Source: Ruminococcus sp.
Lineage (GTDB): Bacteria > Bacillota > Clostridia > Oscillospirales > Ruminococcaceae
DNA: 58,312 nt
NCBI GenBank assembly: GCA_017960805.1
Contig: JAGCYM010000103.1
Location: forward strand, 1 to 58,312
Direction: 5' to 3'
Below are positions 23,918-49,972 of this stretch, one piece after another; positions within the stretch are counted from its first letter, which is position 1, and every line of letters starts with the position of its first letter. The translations under genes were made by a program, and so were the position numbers. The notes below the pieces were generated by a model. The model did no database searches and was not told the origin of the DNA. It worked only from the letters and a program-made list of their open reading frames with translations.

Positions 23918-25303
23918 TTAGACTGTGTGACCGTTAGATTTTATAACGTCAACAACGCTGTTCACATATTTACGGCAGGTAGCCTCGTCTTCTGCCTCAA
24001 CCATAACACGAACAAGAGGTTCTGTACCGCTTTCGCGTACGAGAATACGTCCTGTTGATCCTAATTCTTCACTAACTTTTGCAACTATAGCCTGGACATC
24101 AGGATCAGACTGAGCAGCTTTTTTATCCTTTACGCGGACATTTTCAAGTACCTGTGGGTAAACAATAAAGGGCGCAGCAAGTTCACTGAGTTTTTTCTCA
24201 CGTGACATGATAACCTGCATCATCTTGAGGCTAGTGAGAATTCCATCACCGGTGGAAGCGTACTTAGAAAAGATGATATGTCCAGACTGTTCACCGCCGA
24301 GGCAGCAACCATGTTCCTTCATATACTCATAAACATATTTGTCACCAACCGCAGTTTTGGCGTAATTGATACCTATTTCATCAAAAGCCTTGAAGAGTCC
24401 AAAGTTGGACATTATAGTAGCGACAACGGTGTTGTTAACGAGTTTTCCGCGCTCTTTCATATATCTGCCGTAGATATAGAGAATATGATCACCTGATATG
24501 AGGTTGCCCTTTTCATCCACGCAGAGACAACGATCTGCATCACCGTCGTAAGCAAATCCGACGTCACAGCCATTTTCTACAACGTATTTCTGAAGAACTT
24601 CTATATGTGTGGAGCCAGCATTGTCATTGATATTAGTGCCGTTGGGCGCAGCATTAATAACATATGTGTCAGCTCCAAGAGCGTCAAATACAGCTTTTGC
24701 AATATTCCATGATGCGCCGTTTGCACAGTCGAGAGCTACTTTTACACCTCTGAATGAATACATTCCGAGGGAAATAAGGTATCCGATGTAGCGGTTTCTT
24801 CCAGCTACATAATCAACGGATCTTCCGATTTTATCTCCTGTTGCGAACGGGAGTTCCTTCCAATCTTGTCCAAACGCATTCAGATTTCCGTCGAGATAAG
24901 CTTCAACGAGATTAATAACCTCGTCTTCCATCTTTTCTCCATTGCCGTTTATGAGCTTCAAACCATTGTCATGATAAGGATTATGACTAGCTGAAATCAT
25001 AACTGCACAGTCGAAACTGTCAACACGAGAAATATATGCAACAGAAGGCGTGGTAGTAACATGAAGAAGATAAGCGTCAGCTCCTGATGCGGTAAGTCCG
25101 CCAACGAGCGAGTACTCAAACATGTAACTTGAAAGACGAGTATCTTTTCCTATAACTATTCGTGCAGGAGTATTATCGCCCTTACGGCGTTTTAATTCTC
25201 CGTAGTACCATCCTATGAAGCGTCCAACTTTGAATGCGTGGTCAGCTGTGAGGTTCTCGTTTGCAGTGCCTCTAAATCCATCTGTTCCAAAATACTTTCC
25301 CAT
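23918..25303 (-). CDS. glmM: Phosphoglucosamine mutase (intact copy)
   Basis: 461 residues from the ATG at 25301-25303 (AAAGGAGAC upstream). Interconverts glucosamine-6-P and glucosamine-1-P for peptidoglycan synthesis. All four active loops are canonical: TDGFRG at the N-terminus, phosphoserine loop SASHNPYHDNG, metal loop DGDADR, sugar loop GGEQSGH and phosphate loop RESGTEP. It has its own promoter and terminator. A second, degenerate homologue lies at 46972-48336. A general phosphohexomutase role cannot be excluded. Confidence 0.92.
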   Translation of the reverse strand: MGKYFGTDGFRGTANENLTADHAFKVGRFIGWYYGELKRRKGDNTPARIVIGKDTRLSSYMFEYSLVGGLTASGADAYLLHVTTTPSVAYISRVDSFDCAVMISASHNPYHDNGLKLINGNGEKMEDEVINLVEAYLDGNLNAFGQDWKELPFATGDKIGRSVDYVAGRNRYIGYLISLGMYSFRGVKVALDCANGASWNIAKAVFDALGADTYVINAAPNGTNINDNAGSTHIEVLQKYVVENGCDVGFAYDGDADRCLCVDEKGNLISGDHILYIYGRYMKERGKLVNNTVVATIMSNFGLFKAFDEIGINYAKTAVGDKYVYEYMKEHGCCLGGEQSGHIIFSKYASTGDGILTSLKMMQVIMSREKKLSELAAPFIVYPQVLENVRVKDKKAAQSDPDVQAIVAKVSEELGSTGRILVRESGTEPLVRVMVEAEDEATCRKYVNSVVDVIKSNGHTV

Positions 25304-43435: not shown

Positions 43436-44254
43436 TTATTTCATCAAATGTTTGAAAACGATACTTACAGTTATAGCCGCTGCATAAAAAAAGATTGTTA
43501 TTATCAGCGCTACGATGTCGCGAGTGGAAGTTTTGAGTTGTCTAAGTCTAGTACGTCCTTCTCCACCATTGTAGCATCGGCATTCCATAGCTGTTGCGAG
43601 TTCATCGGCGCGGCGGAAAGACGAAATAAACAGTGGGACAAGAATTGATATCATGTTCTTTGCTCTTGTTAAGAAGCTTCCGGTATCAATTTCGGCTCCT
43701 CTTGCTTTCTGGGCTGACATTATTTTGTCGGTTTCTTCAATAAGTGTTGGTACGAAACGTAGTGCTATTGACATCATCATTGCCAGTTCATGCACGGGGA
43801 ATTTAAGTAGTTTAAGCGGCGAGAGCAGGCGTTCTATAGCGTCAGTCAATGTTATAGGAGAGGTGGTATATGTCAGAAGTGAACTACCCATAATAAGCAG
43901 AACAATTCTTATTATCATGAAGACACTTATGTTAATACCTCCGGAGGTTATCTTTAAAAATTTCCATTTAAAAAAAACATCTCCGCTGTCAACAAGCAGT
44001 ATGTTAAGTAATGCTGTTATAAGAAGAAATGGAAGAAGGGGCTTAACGCTCTTCCAGAACATTTTCAATGGTATACGTGATAGAAATATTGCTATCAATG
44101 TATATATAGCTCCTACAGCTAGGCACACCACATTGCTTCCGGTGAATAGCATAAGGATGTATATTAGTGTGATGACTATCTTGAAGCGAGGATCGAGTCT
44201 GTGTATTATGCTGTTACCAGGGAAATACTGTCCTATGGTCACATCTCTCAGCAT
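43436..44254 (-). CDS. ecfT: ECF transporter T component
   Basis: 272 residues, six or so membrane segments. The two Ala-Arg-Gly-type coupling motifs that contact the ATPases are visible (QKARGAEID at ~165-173 and an ECRCYNGGEGR site at ~220). The start overlaps ecfA2 by 7 bases. No S component is next to the module, so it probably serves several scattered substrate-binding subunits (group II arrangement). Confidence 0.93.
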   Translation of the reverse strand: MLRDVTIGQYFPGNSIIHRLDPRFKIVITLIYILMLFTGSNVVCLAVGAIYTLIAIFLSRIPLKMFWKSVKPLLPFLLITALLNILLVDSGDVFFKWKFLKITSGGINISVFMIIRIVLLIMGSSLLTYTTSPITLTDAIERLLSPLKLLKFPVHELAMMMSIALRFVPTLIEETDKIMSAQKARGAEIDTGSFLTRAKNMISILVPLFISSFRRADELATAMECRCYNGGEGRTRLRQLKTSTRDIVALIITIFFYAAAITVSIVFKHLMK

Positions 44255-45120
44255 AGCTTAGCACCTGCCTTTCCTTGCAGATGCTTCAAAAGGAGATCAC
44301 GTGCATAAGGAACGGTAAATACTTCCTTTCCAAAGTCTAACCCCTGTTTTTTCAATTCCATAAAAACTTTAGTTATCTGTGGTACGTCGAGACCTATTTC
44401 AGATATCTCATCTGCTCTACCAAATACTTTTTCGGTATCATCATAGCAGAATAGCTTTGCCTTGTTCATGACAAGTATCTTGTCAGCGAATCCAGCAATG
44501 TCCTCCATGCTGTGAGAAACAATTAGTATAGTATTCTTTTTGCGTTCATGATATTGTTTTATGTGTGAGAGTATCTTGTCTCTGCCGGCTGGATCAAGGC
44601 CTGCCGTAGGTTCATCTAAAATGAGTACTTTAGGCTCCATAGCCATTACACCAGCGATAGCCACGCGGCGTTTCTGTCCGCCAGAGAGATCAAACGGTGA
44701 GCGTTTTAGGAGTTCTTCTTTTAGTCCTATATCATGTGCTGTTTCAAGAACTCGACGCTTTATTTCTTTTTCGTCCAATCCCATATTGCGAGGCCCGAAT
44801 GCGATATCTTTAAACACTGTTTCTTCAAATATCTGGTACTCAGGGTACTGGAATACAAGTCCAACCTGAAAACGGACATCACGGATTTTTTTCTTATCTG
44901 CCCATATATCCTGTCCGTCCAGCAATACCTGACCGGATGTGGGCTTGAGCAGACCATTGAAATGTTGTATGAGCGTGGATTTTCCTGAGCCTGTGTGACC
45001 CATCACGCCTACCATTTCTCCCTCTTCAATTTTAAGGTCTACGTGGTCGACAGCCGTTTTTTCAAATGGCGAGCCGATACTGTAGGTATATGTGAGTTGA
45101 CGGGTCTCAAGAATTGCCAA
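44248..45120 (-). CDS. ecfA2: ECF transporter ATPase A2
   Basis: 290 residues. Walker A GHTGSGKST (~40-48), Q-loop VFQYPEYQIFE, signature LSGGQKRRVAIAG, Walker B VLILDEPTAGLDP and switch His IVSHSM. The C-terminal domain carries EIGLDVPQITKVFMELKKQG, the A-subunit dimer motif shared with ecfA1. Energises vitamin or metal uptake with EcfA1 and EcfT. Confidence 0.94.
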   Translation of the reverse strand: MAILETRQLTYTYSIGSPFEKTAVDHVDLKIEEGEMVGVMGHTGSGKSTLIQHFNGLLKPTSGQVLLDGQDIWADKKKIRDVRFQVGLVFQYPEYQIFEETVFKDIAFGPRNMGLDEKEIKRRVLETAHDIGLKEELLKRSPFDLSGGQKRRVAIAGVMAMEPKVLILDEPTAGLDPAGRDKILSHIKQYHERKKNTILIVSHSMEDIAGFADKILVMNKAKLFCYDDTEKVFGRADEISEIGLDVPQITKVFMELKKQGLDFGKEVFTVPYARDLLLKHLQGKAGAKLC

Positions 45121-45157
45121 TAAAATCGCTCCTTAATCAATTGTAACTATTAGTTAA

Positions 45158-46006
45158 TTATGCCTGAAAAAGATGTTGTATAGCTTCGACACACTCTTCT
45201 TCAGTGATTATGTCATTGGGGACGTTGTAGCCAGCTTTACGAAGTTCCCAAGCGAGTTCTGTGACTTGTGGCACGTCAAGACCAATTTCCATTACCTGCT
45301 CGACGTGTGAGAAAACTTCACGAGGTGTATCATCAAGGGCAACTGTGCCTTTGTCCATGACGACTATGCGGTCGCATTGCGCTGCCTCATCCATATAATG
45401 TGTTATCAGAACCATCGTTATGCCCTGCTCTCGGTTCATCTTTCTTATCGTAGCCATGACTTCTCTTCTTCCTTGCGGGTCGAGCATAGCAGTTGGTTCG
45501 TCGAGGATTATGCATTTTGGCCGCATGGCAATTATGCCCGCGATGGCAATACGCTGTTTCTGTCCGCCAGATAGCTGGCTTGGAGAGTGCTGGCGGTAGT
45601 CATACATATTTACTGCTTTTAGCGATTCGTCAACGCGCCTTCTCATCTCCTCATATGGTACGCCTAGGTTCTCGAGCGCAAAAGCAACATCTTCTTCGAC
45701 TACGGATGATACTATCTGGTTGTCAGGATTCTGAAAGACCATTCCCGCACGTTGCCGAAGTTCAAAAAGCTGCGATTCGTCTGCGGTGTCTATTCCATCA
45801 ACGATTACTTTGCCCTCTGTCGGAAGCAGTATTGCGTTGATGTGCTTGGCAAGCGTGGATTTTCCGGAGCCGTTGTGCCCGAGCACTGCCACGAATTCGC
45901 CTTCTTTTATTGTAAGGTCGATGCCCTTCAGCACCTCCACGGGATCGGTGTCACCGTCAGACGGGTAACTGAAGTGCAGATTACTTATCTCGATTATGTT
46001 TTTCAT
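45158..46006 (-). CDS. ecfA1: ECF transporter ATPase A1
   Basis: 282 residues. Walker A GHNGSGKST, Q-loop VFQNPDNQIVS (the NPDNQ sequence typical of EcfA1), signature LSGGQKQRIAIAG, Walker B IILDEPTAMLDP and switch ITHYMDEA. The C-terminal MEIGLDVPQVTELAWELRKAG matches the partner motif of ecfA2. It is 37 bases upstream of ecfA2. Confidence 0.94.
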   Translation of the reverse strand: MKNIIEISNLHFSYPSDGDTDPVEVLKGIDLTIKEGEFVAVLGHNGSGKSTLAKHINAILLPTEGKVIVDGIDTADESQLFELRQRAGMVFQNPDNQIVSSVVEEDVAFALENLGVPYEEMRRRVDESLKAVNMYDYRQHSPSQLSGGQKQRIAIAGIIAMRPKCIILDEPTAMLDPQGRREVMATIRKMNREQGITMVLITHYMDEAAQCDRIVVMDKGTVALDDTPREVFSHVEQVMEIGLDVPQVTELAWELRKAGYNVPNDIITEEECVEAIQHLFQA

Positions 46007-46095: not shown

Positions 46096-46959
46096 TCATT
46101 TCTGCCAGATAGCCGTAGATCCGCAGGGAAGGGCCATTCCTGTGGAATGCACGGGAAGCCCTATTTCGTCAAAGCTGACGCTACCCCCAAAGCGCTCTGT
46201 CAGTACGCTACCAAGTATATACCCCATTACCGAGGGCGAAAGTCCGGTGGTATAGCTGTTTATTAGGAAGAAGAGCGGCTTGTCTGAGAGCACACCAGAG
46301 CAGAGCTTTACTAGGTCGTAAACACAATCCTCAAGTTTCCAAACTTCACCACCAGGACCTCTTCCATAACTTGGAGGATCCATAATAACAGCGTCATACT
46401 TTCTTTCGCGTCGTATCTCTCGAGCAATGAATTTTTCACAGTCATCTACTATCCACCGAATCGGCTTATCAGAAAGTCCTGAAGCAGCGGCGTTGTCTCG
46501 TGCCCATTGAACCATGCCTTTCGAAGCATCAACATGGCAGACATTAGCGCCCGCCTCTGCGCAGGCAAGAGTAGCTCCTCCGGTGTATGCAAAAAGGTTC
46601 AGGACGTTTATATCACGTCCTGCTCCTCGAATTTTCTCTGCCATAAAATCCCAGTTTACAGCTTGTTCTGGGAACAGACCAGTGTGTTTGAAGCCTGTGG
46701 GACGTATATTGAATGTAAGCGCTCCATAACTGATTTTCCAACTTTCAGGGAGGCGCTTATGAAACTCCCATTCTCCTCCGCCTTTGTTTGAGCGGTGATA
46801 GTGACCATCTGCATTTTTCCACAGAGGATCGGCTTTATTTGTTTTCCATATTATCTGAGGGTCTGGTCTTACTAGTGAAATCTTCCCCCATTTTTCAAGC
46901 TTTTCGCCGTCGGACGTATCAAGTATTATATAGTCCTTCCAGTTATTTGCAGTCCTCAA
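46096..46959 (-). CDS. Class I SAM-dependent rRNA methyltransferase (RlmI/RlmK-like)
   Basis: 287 residues. The SAM-binding motif NLFAYTGGATLACAEAGA, the acidic VCHVDASKGMVQWA and the catalytic-site motif VIMDPPSYGRGP place it with RlmI-type 23S rRNA cytosine methyltransferases. The usual N-terminal PUA domain is absent; instead there is a short beta region (~1-100). The target site is unknown. It follows the degenerate GlmM homologue by 12 bases. Confidence 0.85.
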   Translation of the reverse strand: MRTANNWKDYIILDTSDGEKLEKWGKISLVRPDPQIIWKTNKADPLWKNADGHYHRSNKGGGEWEFHKRLPESWKISYGALTFNIRPTGFKHTGLFPEQAVNWDFMAEKIRGAGRDINVLNLFAYTGGATLACAEAGANVCHVDASKGMVQWARDNAAASGLSDKPIRWIVDDCEKFIAREIRRERKYDAVIMDPPSYGRGPGGEVWKLEDCVYDLVKLCSGVLSDKPLFFLINSYTTGLSPSVMGYILGSVLTERFGGSVSFDEIGLPVHSTGMALPCGSTAIWQK

Positions 46960-46971
46960 TTTAAATACTCC

Positions 46972-48336
46972 TTAATGTGGATGTTGTAGCGTCAGACGCT
47001 CTTTTATAGTATCGGCGATTTGTAATGCCATCGTATTTATTGTAGAGAAATCTCTGCCTTCTATCATAATACGTATTACCGGCTCAATTCCTACTTCGCG
47101 AACGACAACTCTTCCTTCCTCTCCGAGTATTCCTTCGAACTCGTCGATTATTCCGGTTACAGCACGATCATTTTTCCATACTTCGCGGAAGCGTTTGTCA
47201 ATAGGAACATTCAGCATAACTTGTGGACACTTTTCAATAACAGCTGATAGTTCGCTGAGTTTCTTTTCTGAGCGTTTAAGGGCTGAGAGAAGGCGTATAC
47301 CCGTTAACTGTCCATCAGCAGATGGAGCCAGATCAGGAAATAACAGATGTCCTGCAGAATCGCCTCCGAGGCTGAATCCACATTCAAGCATCCGACGAAT
47401 CATGCTTCTTTCTCCGGGGGATGAAGCTGATGTCCCGATTCCGTTTGAGCGAGCGAACTGAAGAAGGCCAAGATTGTTTGCCTGTGTAAATAAAATAGAA
47501 TTGTTGTTAAGAGTTTCTCGCTCTTTCATGTCTTTTGCGCAGATAGCAACAATCATATCGCCGTCGACAATACCGCCGTTTTCATCAACAGCAAGGCATC
47601 GTTCTGCCGCTCCATCAAAAGCGATTCCGCAACTGCATTTATTCTCGACTACTATTCGCATAAGATGGTCGATATGTGTACTGCCGCAATCCTTGTTTAT
47701 GTTTGCCCCGTCAGGAGTATTTCCTGTGAGAACAATCTCTGCACCAAGAGCAGTGAATATTTCTTTTGCCGTTGCAGAAGCGCAACCATTAGCACAGTCA
47801 ATGGCAATCTTTAATCCTTTAAGATCTGCATCAGCTATCTCTTTGATATGGGTGATGTATTTTTCGTTTGCTTTATCGGTAAATGTGAGCTTTCCATAAT
47901 TCTTGCGCGGAATAGGGACTATTTCTCCAGGCGCATCAAGAATAAGTCTCTCTATTTCTTCTTCGCGGTCATCGCTGAGTCGGTGACCAGAAGATGAGAA
48001 AAGCTTGATGCCACTGAATTCCGCATTAATATGCGAGGCGGTTACCATTATGCCTCCGTTAGCTTCAGTTTCTTTTACAAGCCAAGCTAGCGCAGGAGTA
48101 GGTGTCTCGCCTATGAGTTCTGCATTTGCGCCGGCAGAGCATATTCCTGCACATAAAGCTGCAGCTATTGAATCAGAGGAGCTTCGTGTATCCATTCCTA
48201 AGAGAATCCTTGTTGTTTCAGAATTATGCCCCGCGAGAACTACTGCAGCTGCACGTCCAATCTGTAGTGCAAGTTCGCATGTCAGTTCAGTAACAGCTAT
48301 GCCACGCATGCCGTCTCTTCCAAAGAGTCTTCCCAT
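46972..48336 (-). CDS. Degenerate phosphoglucosamine mutase paralogue (probable pseudo-enzyme)
   Basis: 454 residues, full length and without stops, clearly homologous to GlmM from MGRLFGRDGMRG to the end. The phosphoserine is kept (S101, TASHINAE), but the loop's Asn-Pro is Ile-Asn. The metal loop DGDADR is DGAAER (D243 and D245 positions lost), the sugar loop GGEQSGH is GGDSAGH and the phosphate loop RxSGTEP is REVGIEP. All four differences sit in otherwise invariant sites. It is probably inactive as a mutase and may bind sugar phosphates or partner GlmM. AGGAGG precedes the ATG. Confidence 0.82.
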   Translation of the reverse strand: MGRLFGRDGMRGIAVTELTCELALQIGRAAAVVLAGHNSETTRILLGMDTRSSSDSIAAALCAGICSAGANAELIGETPTPALAWLVKETEANGGIMVTASHINAEFSGIKLFSSSGHRLSDDREEEIERLILDAPGEIVPIPRKNYGKLTFTDKANEKYITHIKEIADADLKGLKIAIDCANGCASATAKEIFTALGAEIVLTGNTPDGANINKDCGSTHIDHLMRIVVENKCSCGIAFDGAAERCLAVDENGGIVDGDMIVAICAKDMKERETLNNNSILFTQANNLGLLQFARSNGIGTSASSPGERSMIRRMLECGFSLGGDSAGHLLFPDLAPSADGQLTGIRLLSALKRSEKKLSELSAVIEKCPQVMLNVPIDKRFREVWKNDRAVTGIIDEFEGILGEEGRVVVREVGIEPVIRIMIEGRDFSTINTMALQIADTIKERLTLQHPH

Positions 48337-48372: not shown

Positions 48373-48894
48373 CTATTTTTTTATAGCATAAATTGCTAAT
48401 GGTTTGCGGTTTTTTGATAATTCTTCCAACGAGTCAGCATATCTGATAGTATTACAGTTATTATATCTGTTGTATATTTTTATTCTGTTTCCTTCTCTTG
48501 TGCAGAAGACTGTATGTATGGAGGAGAAGAATGGTTTGCCGGTCCAAAAGGAGACTATGAAAGCAGGTGTATCACCTATCTCCTTGACACGTTCATAATT
48601 AGCGCCGAATTTACGCAGAGCCTTACCAAGTCGAAAAACATTACAGCCAAATGTACCCAATAAAACTCGGTATTTCTCGAGAAAAAACGCAACCTCTTGG
48701 AGTGGCTGCGGTTTCCCAACATATCGAAGAGCATTGTATACTGAAATGACTTCACATCCATTAAAGCTCATTTGAAAAAGCCCGAACTTCAGTTTAGACA
48801 CGTCCCCCATGCCTTGGCCGTTTATCATCTGGTCGCTAAGGTTGCATTTGAGGTTGTGTTCATAATTGAATTTACGTGTAGTCTGTATTTTCAT
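48373..48894 (-). CDS. Putative C39-like cysteine-peptidase-fold protein
   Basis: 173 residues, no signal peptide. The sequence has the C39/papain-like order: Cys47 in FNGCEVISVYNALR, a helical PLQEVAFFLEKYRVLLGTFGCN segment, a His127 in SSIHTVFC and Asn142 in IYNRYNN. This suggests a Cys-His-Asn triad. Activity and substrate are inference. It is cotranscribed with ruvB (16 bases downstream) and the degenerate GlmM gene (36 bases upstream of its start). Confidence 0.55.
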   Translation of the reverse strand: MKIQTTRKFNYEHNLKCNLSDQMINGQGMGDVSKLKFGLFQMSFNGCEVISVYNALRYVGKPQPLQEVAFFLEKYRVLLGTFGCNVFRLGKALRKFGANYERVKEIGDTPAFIVSFWTGKPFFSSIHTVFCTREGNRIKIYNRYNNCNTIRYADSLEELSKNRKPLAIYAIKK

Positions 48895-48910: not shown

Positions 48911-49972
48911 TCAGAATGTTAACTGACCTTCATCCGTACTGGCGGAATTGATCTCAGGCGGAACAATTCCTAGATGTTCATAAGCAAGACGAGTTGCAAC
49001 TCGTCCGCGTGGAGTTCTTCCAAGGAATCCGAGTTGCATAAGAAATGGTTCACAGATATCCTCAAGAGTAACTGATTCTTCACCTATTGCAGAGGCGAGG
49101 GTTTCTAGTCCTACTGGACCGCCGCCGTAACCCTTGATTATCATTTGAAGCATGCGTCTGTCAAGACTGTCAAGGCCCAAATTGTCTATTTCAAGTCGGC
49201 TTAGTGCAATCGAAGCTATTTCTCTGGTTATCTGTCCGTCTCCCATTACGTCGGCAAAATCGCGAACACGTTTGAGAAGACGGTTTGCTATACGCGGAGT
49301 GCCTCTCGCCCTTCCTGCAATTTCGGCAGCTCCATCTATGTCACAAGGAATACAGAGAATCATTGCACTTCTGCGGACTATGTCTGTGAGCTGTTCTGTT
49401 GTGTAGAGTTCTAGGCGCTCAATGACGCCAAAACGGTCTCGCAGAGGAGCCGAGAGTTGTCCGGCTCTTGTCGTTGCTCCGATGAGTGTGAATGGTTTCA
49501 GGTCCATACGTATAGAACGTGCGGAAGGCCCTTTTCCAATTATTATGTCAATCACTCTGTCTTCGAGTGCGGGATAGAGTATTTCCTCGACAGAACGTGA
49601 GAGCCGATGTATTTCGTCAATGAACAGAACATCATTATCATTGAGACTTGTGAGTAGAGAAACAAGATCACCGGGTTTTTCAATAGCTGGGCCTGTCGTT
49701 ACACGAAGATTGACACCTAATTCATGAGCGATTATTGATGAAAGTGTGGTTTTTCCGAGACCGGGAGGTCCGTATAAAAGAACGTGGTCAAGGGGTTCGC
49801 CGCGCTTCTTGGCGGCTTCGATATAAATAGCAATCTTTTCCTTAACTTTGTCTTGTCCAATGTATTCATGCAGATTCTGTGGTCGGAGGGAGATTTCGAT
49901 ATCACCGTCATCTTGGGTAACCTCAGGAGATATTACTCTTGGGGCAAATTCCATTTCTTCCGTTTCTATCAT
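48911..49972 (-). CDS. ruvB: Holliday junction branch-migration ATPase RuvB
   Basis: 353 residues. Walker [16 protein letters not shown], Walker [12 protein letters not shown], sensor and Arg finger region [20 protein letters not shown], and the C-terminal winged helix ending [21 protein letters not shown]. Drives branch migration with RuvA. The start follows GGAGG. ruvA and ruvC lie upstream, but an SseB-like gene is inserted between ruvA and ruvB. Confidence 0.98.

Follow-up and report, generated by a model that had tools for sequence, protein, structure and literature searches.

Cell-wall synthesis hinges on the supply of UDP-GlcNAc. In Bacillus, Staphylococcus and Lactococcus the enzyme GlmM has a second role as regulator of the diadenylate cyclase CdaA. 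Apart from CdaA, GlmM has to our knowledge been treated as a single-purpose enzyme. According to excerpts of two studies, GlmM acts as an inhibitor of CdaA in both B. subtilis and S. aureus, the CdaA-GlmM interface belongs to domain 2, and removal of domain 4 does not abolish the inhibition (PMC8573169, PMC6368335). PGM5 (aciculin) is, again going by excerpts, an inactive vertebrate phosphoglucomutase with structural or binding roles, its substrate binding being intact by crystal structure (PMC7761743, PMC5570346). Here we describe a GlmM of the Ruminococcaceae with changes in all active-site loops. Sequence comparison makes it likely that a xenologue which spread horizontally displaced an essential GlmM, and that the old protein was retained as a non-catalytic pseudoenzyme.

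The window, i.e. the whole stretch of 58,312 nucleotides that was analysed, carries two GlmM genes. A GlmM that lies at the ruvB locus, or an orthologue of it, is called “native” here, and “type B” is the kind of GlmM found at window positions 23918-25303. The genus of the window is referred to as g1, and genomes G148-G163 were counted with it because they grouped with G019 and G135 in marker trees. The relevant features are as follows.

23918..25303, minus strand: type B GlmM of 461 aa with canonical loops, presumably a working mutase (TIGR01455, 534.5 bits)
43436..46006, minus strand: genes which we take to be ecfA1, ecfA2 and ecfT, conserved downstream and marking the ancestral locus (gene order)
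46096..46959, minus strand: SAM-dependent methyltransferase (PF10672), ancestral downstream neighbour of glmM
46972..48336, minus strand: altered native GlmM, probable pseudoenzyme, 454 aa, at the ancestral glmM locus
47080..47100, minus strand: phosphate loop REVGIEP (canonical RxSGTEP), codons 413-419
47176..47178, minus strand: W387 in domain IV, codon 387; Trp in 66/66 altered full-length copies examined
47347..47367, minus strand: sugar loop GGDSAGH (canonical GGEQSGH), codons 324-330
47599..47616, minus strand: metal loop DGAAER (canonical DGDADR), codons 241-246
48025..48042, minus strand: loop 1 TASHIN, codons 99-104; S101 and H102 retained, I-N in place of the canonical N103-P104 or N-S
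48373..48894, minus strand: gene of a presumably C39-like protein between ruvB and glmM, seen only in the window's clade g1
48911..49972, minus strand: ruvB, ancestral upstream neighbour (gene order)

The altered gene starts with ATG and runs through 454 codons without an internal stop (ORF translation); the loop positions were checked as well, and the full-length frame with four altered loops that the original prediction described is thereby borne out. So is its canonical GlmM 22 kb away (23918-25303, minus strand), which reads SASHNP, DGDADR, GGEQSGH and RESGTEP at the corresponding places. The catalytic serine, S101, and R413 are present in the altered protein, and of the three aspartates of the metal site the second is replaced by Ala and the third by Glu. 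Further motif changes are FGTDG to FGRDG (T7R), G(K/R)DTR to GMDTR, VGDRY to PGERS, and K119R. All four PGM_PMM domains (I-IV; PF02878, PF02879, PF02880, PF00408) scored over their Pfam cut-offs, and the glmM equivalog profile TIGR01455 gave 441.1 bits, below its curated cut-off of 447.55. An AlphaFold model built with 33 related sequences as input reached a mean pLDDT of 87.6 and a pTM of 0.86, with low-confidence stretches at about residues 11-20, 101-110 and 211-220, active-site loops among them. The best solved matches to this model in Foldseek were the GlmM structures of S. aureus and B. anthracis (TM 0.91-0.92). The four-domain architecture and the fold of GlmM are predicted to be retained. 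Among 184 distinct full-length GlmM proteins, 158 are unchanged at 17 key sites, so that the altered loops are not a matter of chance; 26 carry at least one change, and removal of L131 (cut by a contig edge only) and L050 (a single change) leaves 24 altered proteins.

Gene order around the altered copy is ruvC-ruvA-(SseB)-ruvB-C39-like-glmM-methyltransferase-ecfA1-ecfA2-ecfT (L033-L047, G019, G135 and G163, as far as the stretches reach). Most relatives examined that have one canonical GlmM carry it in the same position, ruvB-glmM-methyltransferase-ecf, without the C39-like gene. Since this order matches the canonical glmM locus of relatives, the altered gene is the old, vertically inherited GlmM at its ancestral locus, and the canonical copy is probably a newcomer or xenologue. 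This inverts the earlier framing, in which the altered gene was a paralogue of the canonical GlmM. Identity of the altered protein to 100 canonical natives is 37.5-53.7% (median 45.8%), and to the canonical GlmM of the same genome 36%; synteny and identity together reject a fresh duplicate. The earlier description of the neighbours holds for the methyltransferase and for the presence of a small protein. The latter is presumed to be C39-like on account of Cys, His and Asn candidate residues that do not vary over the 19 sequences aligned; it had no NCBIfam or Pfam match at default threshold (with E up to 10, one weak and different match). The gene was not seen at the native locus of G044, G096, G106, G108 and G090 in the stretches compared.

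To place the window in its family, 148 genomes were searched, of which 134 had a match at 1e-20 and 131 yielded a GlmM sequence. A canonical native alone was found in 96/131, an altered native plus a canonical second copy in eight, and an altered native alone in one (G108); a full-length canonical native together with type B occurred in none of the 131. In 20 genomes the canonical copy lay on a stretch without ruvB or methyltransferase (a mixture of type B and of natives whose stretches are short or rearranged), four genomes had only partial copies, G084 had two canonical-loop copies, neither of them type B and one cut by a contig edge, and G004 had a tandem GlmM pair. On the G004 stretch (L130) the whole block glmM-methyltransferase-ecfA1-ecfA2 is tandemly repeated, and the second glmM frame has 349 aa. 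G060, G072, G076 and G178 gave no GlmM-grade match at the thresholds used, and GlmU is found in G060 and G178. G097, a genome without an ordinary GlmM match, encodes a phosphohexomutase with a 509-aa frame (L255, G097:C44:143705-145087; 168 bits to glmM) adjoining a GlmU-like frame (G097:C44:145095-145832), a possible candidate for a non-orthologous GlmM. A Ruminococcus-type ruv-glmM-ecf locus was also seen in a sequence titled Alistipes sp. (L041, JAMPAJ010000001.1), probably a mislabelled MAG.

Altered natives recur in the whole genera g1, g44, g96 and g108 and in G071, G106 and G090, and the carriers include the isolates Ruminococcus flavefaciens YRD2003 and MC2020. At least five altered copies (G154, G149, G186, G187 and G192) score over the TIGR01455 cut-off, a warning to annotation by this equivalog. 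A tree from seven neighbouring marker genes of 65 genomes, built by a quick method and with gaps in some rows, holds the altered genera together and sets canonical natives among them: G117 stands with g108 (95*), and G206 and G201, the latter scored canonical in the marker-tree tests, lie inside g44 (100*). Constraining the 27 altered rows to one clade was rejected (p-AU 5e-44), and parsimony gave eight changes. The alteration arose several times independently, the marker tree rejecting a single origin; the recurrence that the original prediction had proposed to look for was thus found, with altered loops common to orthologues and arising anew in several lineages. A midpoint-drawn GlmM tree put most altered copies together at the base, which we took for long-branch attraction, and that tree was left unused.

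Type B stands apart as a clade with strong support, within which near and far genera are interleaved, many inner forks of the tree being unresolved. This pattern probably reflects horizontal spread; an old paralogue with many losses may be the alternative. In the profile search, type B scored over the TIGR01455 cut-off in 18/19 genomes with a g1-type altered copy and was not found in the remaining one, the 1.6-Mb MAG G158. Genus searches gave both copies in 19/21 genomes of g44 (G205 and G206 have a canonical native alone) and in 8/11 of g96 (type B only in G188, the altered copy only in G191 and G193). Genus g44 also holds intermediates: besides G205 and G206, G201 combines type B with a native changed at positions 119, 309 and 330 out of 23 listed sites, and the other 18 genomes have type B and a heavily altered native. 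G201 is an early stage of native alteration. An independent-pairs test of type B against alteration found five supported pairs, of which a mean of 4.6 agreed in direction and none ran opposite, with a median p of 0.06, a suggestive link between the presence of type B and alteration of the native. Displacement by type B does not cover every case, since altered copies without a type B found occur in genus g108, G191 and G193.

The same counts bear on the idea that the altered protein works only together with type B, say as one subunit of a heterodimer. Co-occurrence in 18/19 genomes of the g1 clade, 8/11 of g96 and 19/21 of g44 would fit such a pair. In g108, however, 18/21 genomes have the altered GlmM only (three have none at 1e-40) and a GlmM over the TIGR01455 cut-off was found in 0/21, no type B was found in G191 or G193, and type B occurs without any native where the native has been deleted. 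Moreover, several native domain I residues kept in altered copies, which we take to lie in a dimer interface, differ in type B. We regard an obligate partnership as very improbable, and the earlier suggestion of a “partner of GlmM” is disfavoured by the same altered copies in g108 (18/21), G191 and G193, where a canonical GlmM was not found. GlmU was present in 8/8 g108 genomes tested, so that GlcN-1-P should come from another source there.

Of the 111 columns whose conservation in canonical natives reaches 95%, 30 have been lost by three or more of the four altered genera. By our own assignment about 20 of these 30 lie in active-site loops, including T7, D8, R11, S101, N103, D245, D309, E326, S328, H330, S415, T417 and E418. 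Across 61 altered copies in five sets, R413 is kept in 61 (G090, outside the five sets, lacks it), S101 in 37, and Asp at position 245 in none. S101 is kept in 18/18 g1-clade copies and absent from 16/16 copies of g108 and 8/27 of g44 and g96. Trp387 is the residue never lost in altered copies (61/61, plus G044, G071, G090, G106 and G108); this is no proof of a binding site. The same Trp is found in 29/30 near natives (as defined below), 2/70 far natives and 0/25 type B proteins, and G205 and G206 have Phe.

Could the altered cleft still be catalytic, doing without the classical magnesium site and serving, for example, as mutase or phosphatase for a different sugar phosphate? The g1 copies give this reading some footing: 16 g1 orthologues keep S101, R11 and R413, and D245E, E326D, D309E and K119R are uniform, a pattern more suggestive of redesign than of random loss; with M286A and G340A, these replacements are fixed or nearly so in g1. 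Because S101, R11, K111 and mostly H330 are kept, presumably the last three as acid/base residues, some chemistry may remain in the g1 copies. Yet g1 retains one metal aspartate out of three, Asp245 is missing throughout the 61 altered copies, and the g108, g44 and g96 copies that lack the nucleophile cannot use the known chemistry. A redesigned enzyme is in our judgement unlikely, and we prefer the reading of a pseudoenzyme, the altered GlmM having lost residues needed for catalysis and being under purifying selection.

Evidence for this selection comes from pooled closest pairs (Nei-Gojobori), with dN/dS of 0.089 in g1 (17 pairs), 0.157 for the single pair G135/G163, 0.070 in g44 (7), 0.039 in g96 (4) and 0.119 in g108 (21), compared to 0.033 in type B (24). 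Wider pairs had medians of 0.087 (g1), 0.157 (g44), 0.049 (g96) and 0.278 (g108, range 0.03-0.50). Canonical natives gave 0.31 (21 closest pairs) and a median of 0.37 (459 of 4950 pairs), values judged saturated and therefore no clean baseline, so that altered and canonical natives are not comparable in this respect. Since pooled closest-pair dN/dS is 0.04-0.16, the altered copies are under purifying selection, although constraint on the altered gene in g1 is two to three times below that on type B. Selection for a changed role, as originally proposed, is supported by these values, which are far below the dN/dS of one that would have pointed to decay, and by loops that are altered in common among orthologues. 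Slow decay of a redundant gene could draw on the deletion of the native in G139 and in far clades and on the frameshifted MAG copy L047 (G162). Against the low dN/dS, the full-length frames across genera and the fixed new residues, decay is extremely improbable.

The remaining constraint is unevenly distributed over the altered protein. In altered copies domain IV shows an identity excess over domains I-III in 12/12 genus-by-divergence bins (medians of +0.02 to +0.17), in contrast to canonical natives and type B, where the excess is negative in 6/6 bins (-0.01 to -0.16). Within g1, dN/dS of domain IV is 0.065 (0.078 in type B) and that of domains I-III is 0.070-0.128 (0.021-0.029 in type B); domain IV thus holds its constraint in g1 while domains I-III relax. 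In g44 and g96 the lowest dN/dS belongs to a domain other than IV, and in the pair G135/G163 domain IV has the highest value. Near-clade canonical natives did not exceed far ones in the constraint on domain IV, and a second function before displacement is therefore unsupported by that comparison.

The native gene met two fates. We call near clade the 56-genome branch holding all altered lineages (G071 was placed by a later marker tree), and far the rest. With type B present, the native is gone and ruvB abuts the methyltransferase in far G066, G141, G031, G054, G007 and G043 and in near G139. Six near lineages with type B (g1, g44, g96, G071, G090 and G106) keep the altered gene and one has deleted it, against deletion in 6/6 far lineages (Fisher p 0.005, or 0.015 with the sister genomes G066 and G141 merged; the contrast was drawn after seeing the data, and G094, with type B and ruvB outside the stretch, was left out). 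Far genus g31 had the native only in 6/11 genomes, type B without native in 5/11 and both in 0/11 at a threshold of 1e-60, at which a very decayed native could escape. In G030 (L280, 2352-3522) about 1.2 kb with two short non-GlmM frames lies between ruvB and the methyltransferase, and glmM is missing there. As a tentative explanation, to which we give somewhat less than even weight, GlmM of the Ruminococcus clade would have a non-catalytic function apart from CdaA that relies on domain IV. Freed by the xenologue, it would repeatedly become a pseudoenzyme, and sister clades without this function would delete it. If true, this amounts to a natural experiment separating the catalysis of an essential enzyme from its second job.

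Regulation of CdaA, the reading we first favoured, was dropped after the contact residues were found missing on both partners. CdaA itself is there to be regulated: it was found in 27/27 and 24/24 genomes tested (23 of the 24 over the cut-off). However, it is also present where the native GlmM has been deleted, and the interface is in domain 2, whereas altered copies keep their constraint in domain IV. Placed by HMMER alignments, the B. subtilis GlmM contacts D151, E154 and D195 (as named in excerpts of PMC8573169) are F, K and A in the altered GlmM. They are not conserved as acids in the canonical natives of the family either, and the residue corresponding to CdaA R126 in the window's genome, located by its distance ahead of the DGA motif, is T. 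Neither the acidic domain 2 contacts nor the CdaA Arg126 expected with a CdaA-inhibiting GlmM were thus found, and a retained CdaA regulator is quite improbable.

Under the displacement and pseudoenzyme reading, GlmM of a distant lineage (type B) would have spread through the family, probably horizontally, and taken over GlcN-1-P production. The old GlmM stayed in its original place; its metal site, sugar-specificity loop and phosphate loop are gone, and purifying selection has held it, probably as a non-catalytic protein. Folded in four domains, it would have in its remodelled cleft a binding site for a sugar phosphate or for phosphate, and would report this ligand to a partner or hold a complex together, domain IV being the constrained part. 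Its role is probably that of a sugar-phosphate-binding regulator or scaffold; the sugar-phosphate sensor of the original prediction may be right. That a gutted GlmM has been kept under selection again and again, after its mutase role passed to another copy, points to a second function, which could be tracked down by genetics.

Titles and abstract openings among the matches listed in the literature, largely open-access, report no retained altered GlmM. The altered protein is like GlmM (TIGR01455, alpha-D-phosphohexomutase superfamily) in predicted fold, four Pfam domains, ancestral locus, S101 and R413, and unlike it in the changed metal, sugar and phosphate loops and the score below the equivalog cut-off. 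The inhibition of CdaA/DacA by GlmM, as far as the excerpts go, is a precedent for a non-catalytic second function of a bacterial GlmM (PMC8573169, PMC6368335). In that system, however, one protein does both jobs, and in the window's lineage neither partner has kept the contact residues. PGM5 comes nearest as a precedent: it and the altered GlmM are superfamily members with differences in active-site loops, PGM5 inactive and the altered GlmM probably so. In contrast to the altered GlmM, PGM5 is a vertebrate protein with far less altered loops; the altered GlmM is a displaced gene, and its alteration recurs independently.
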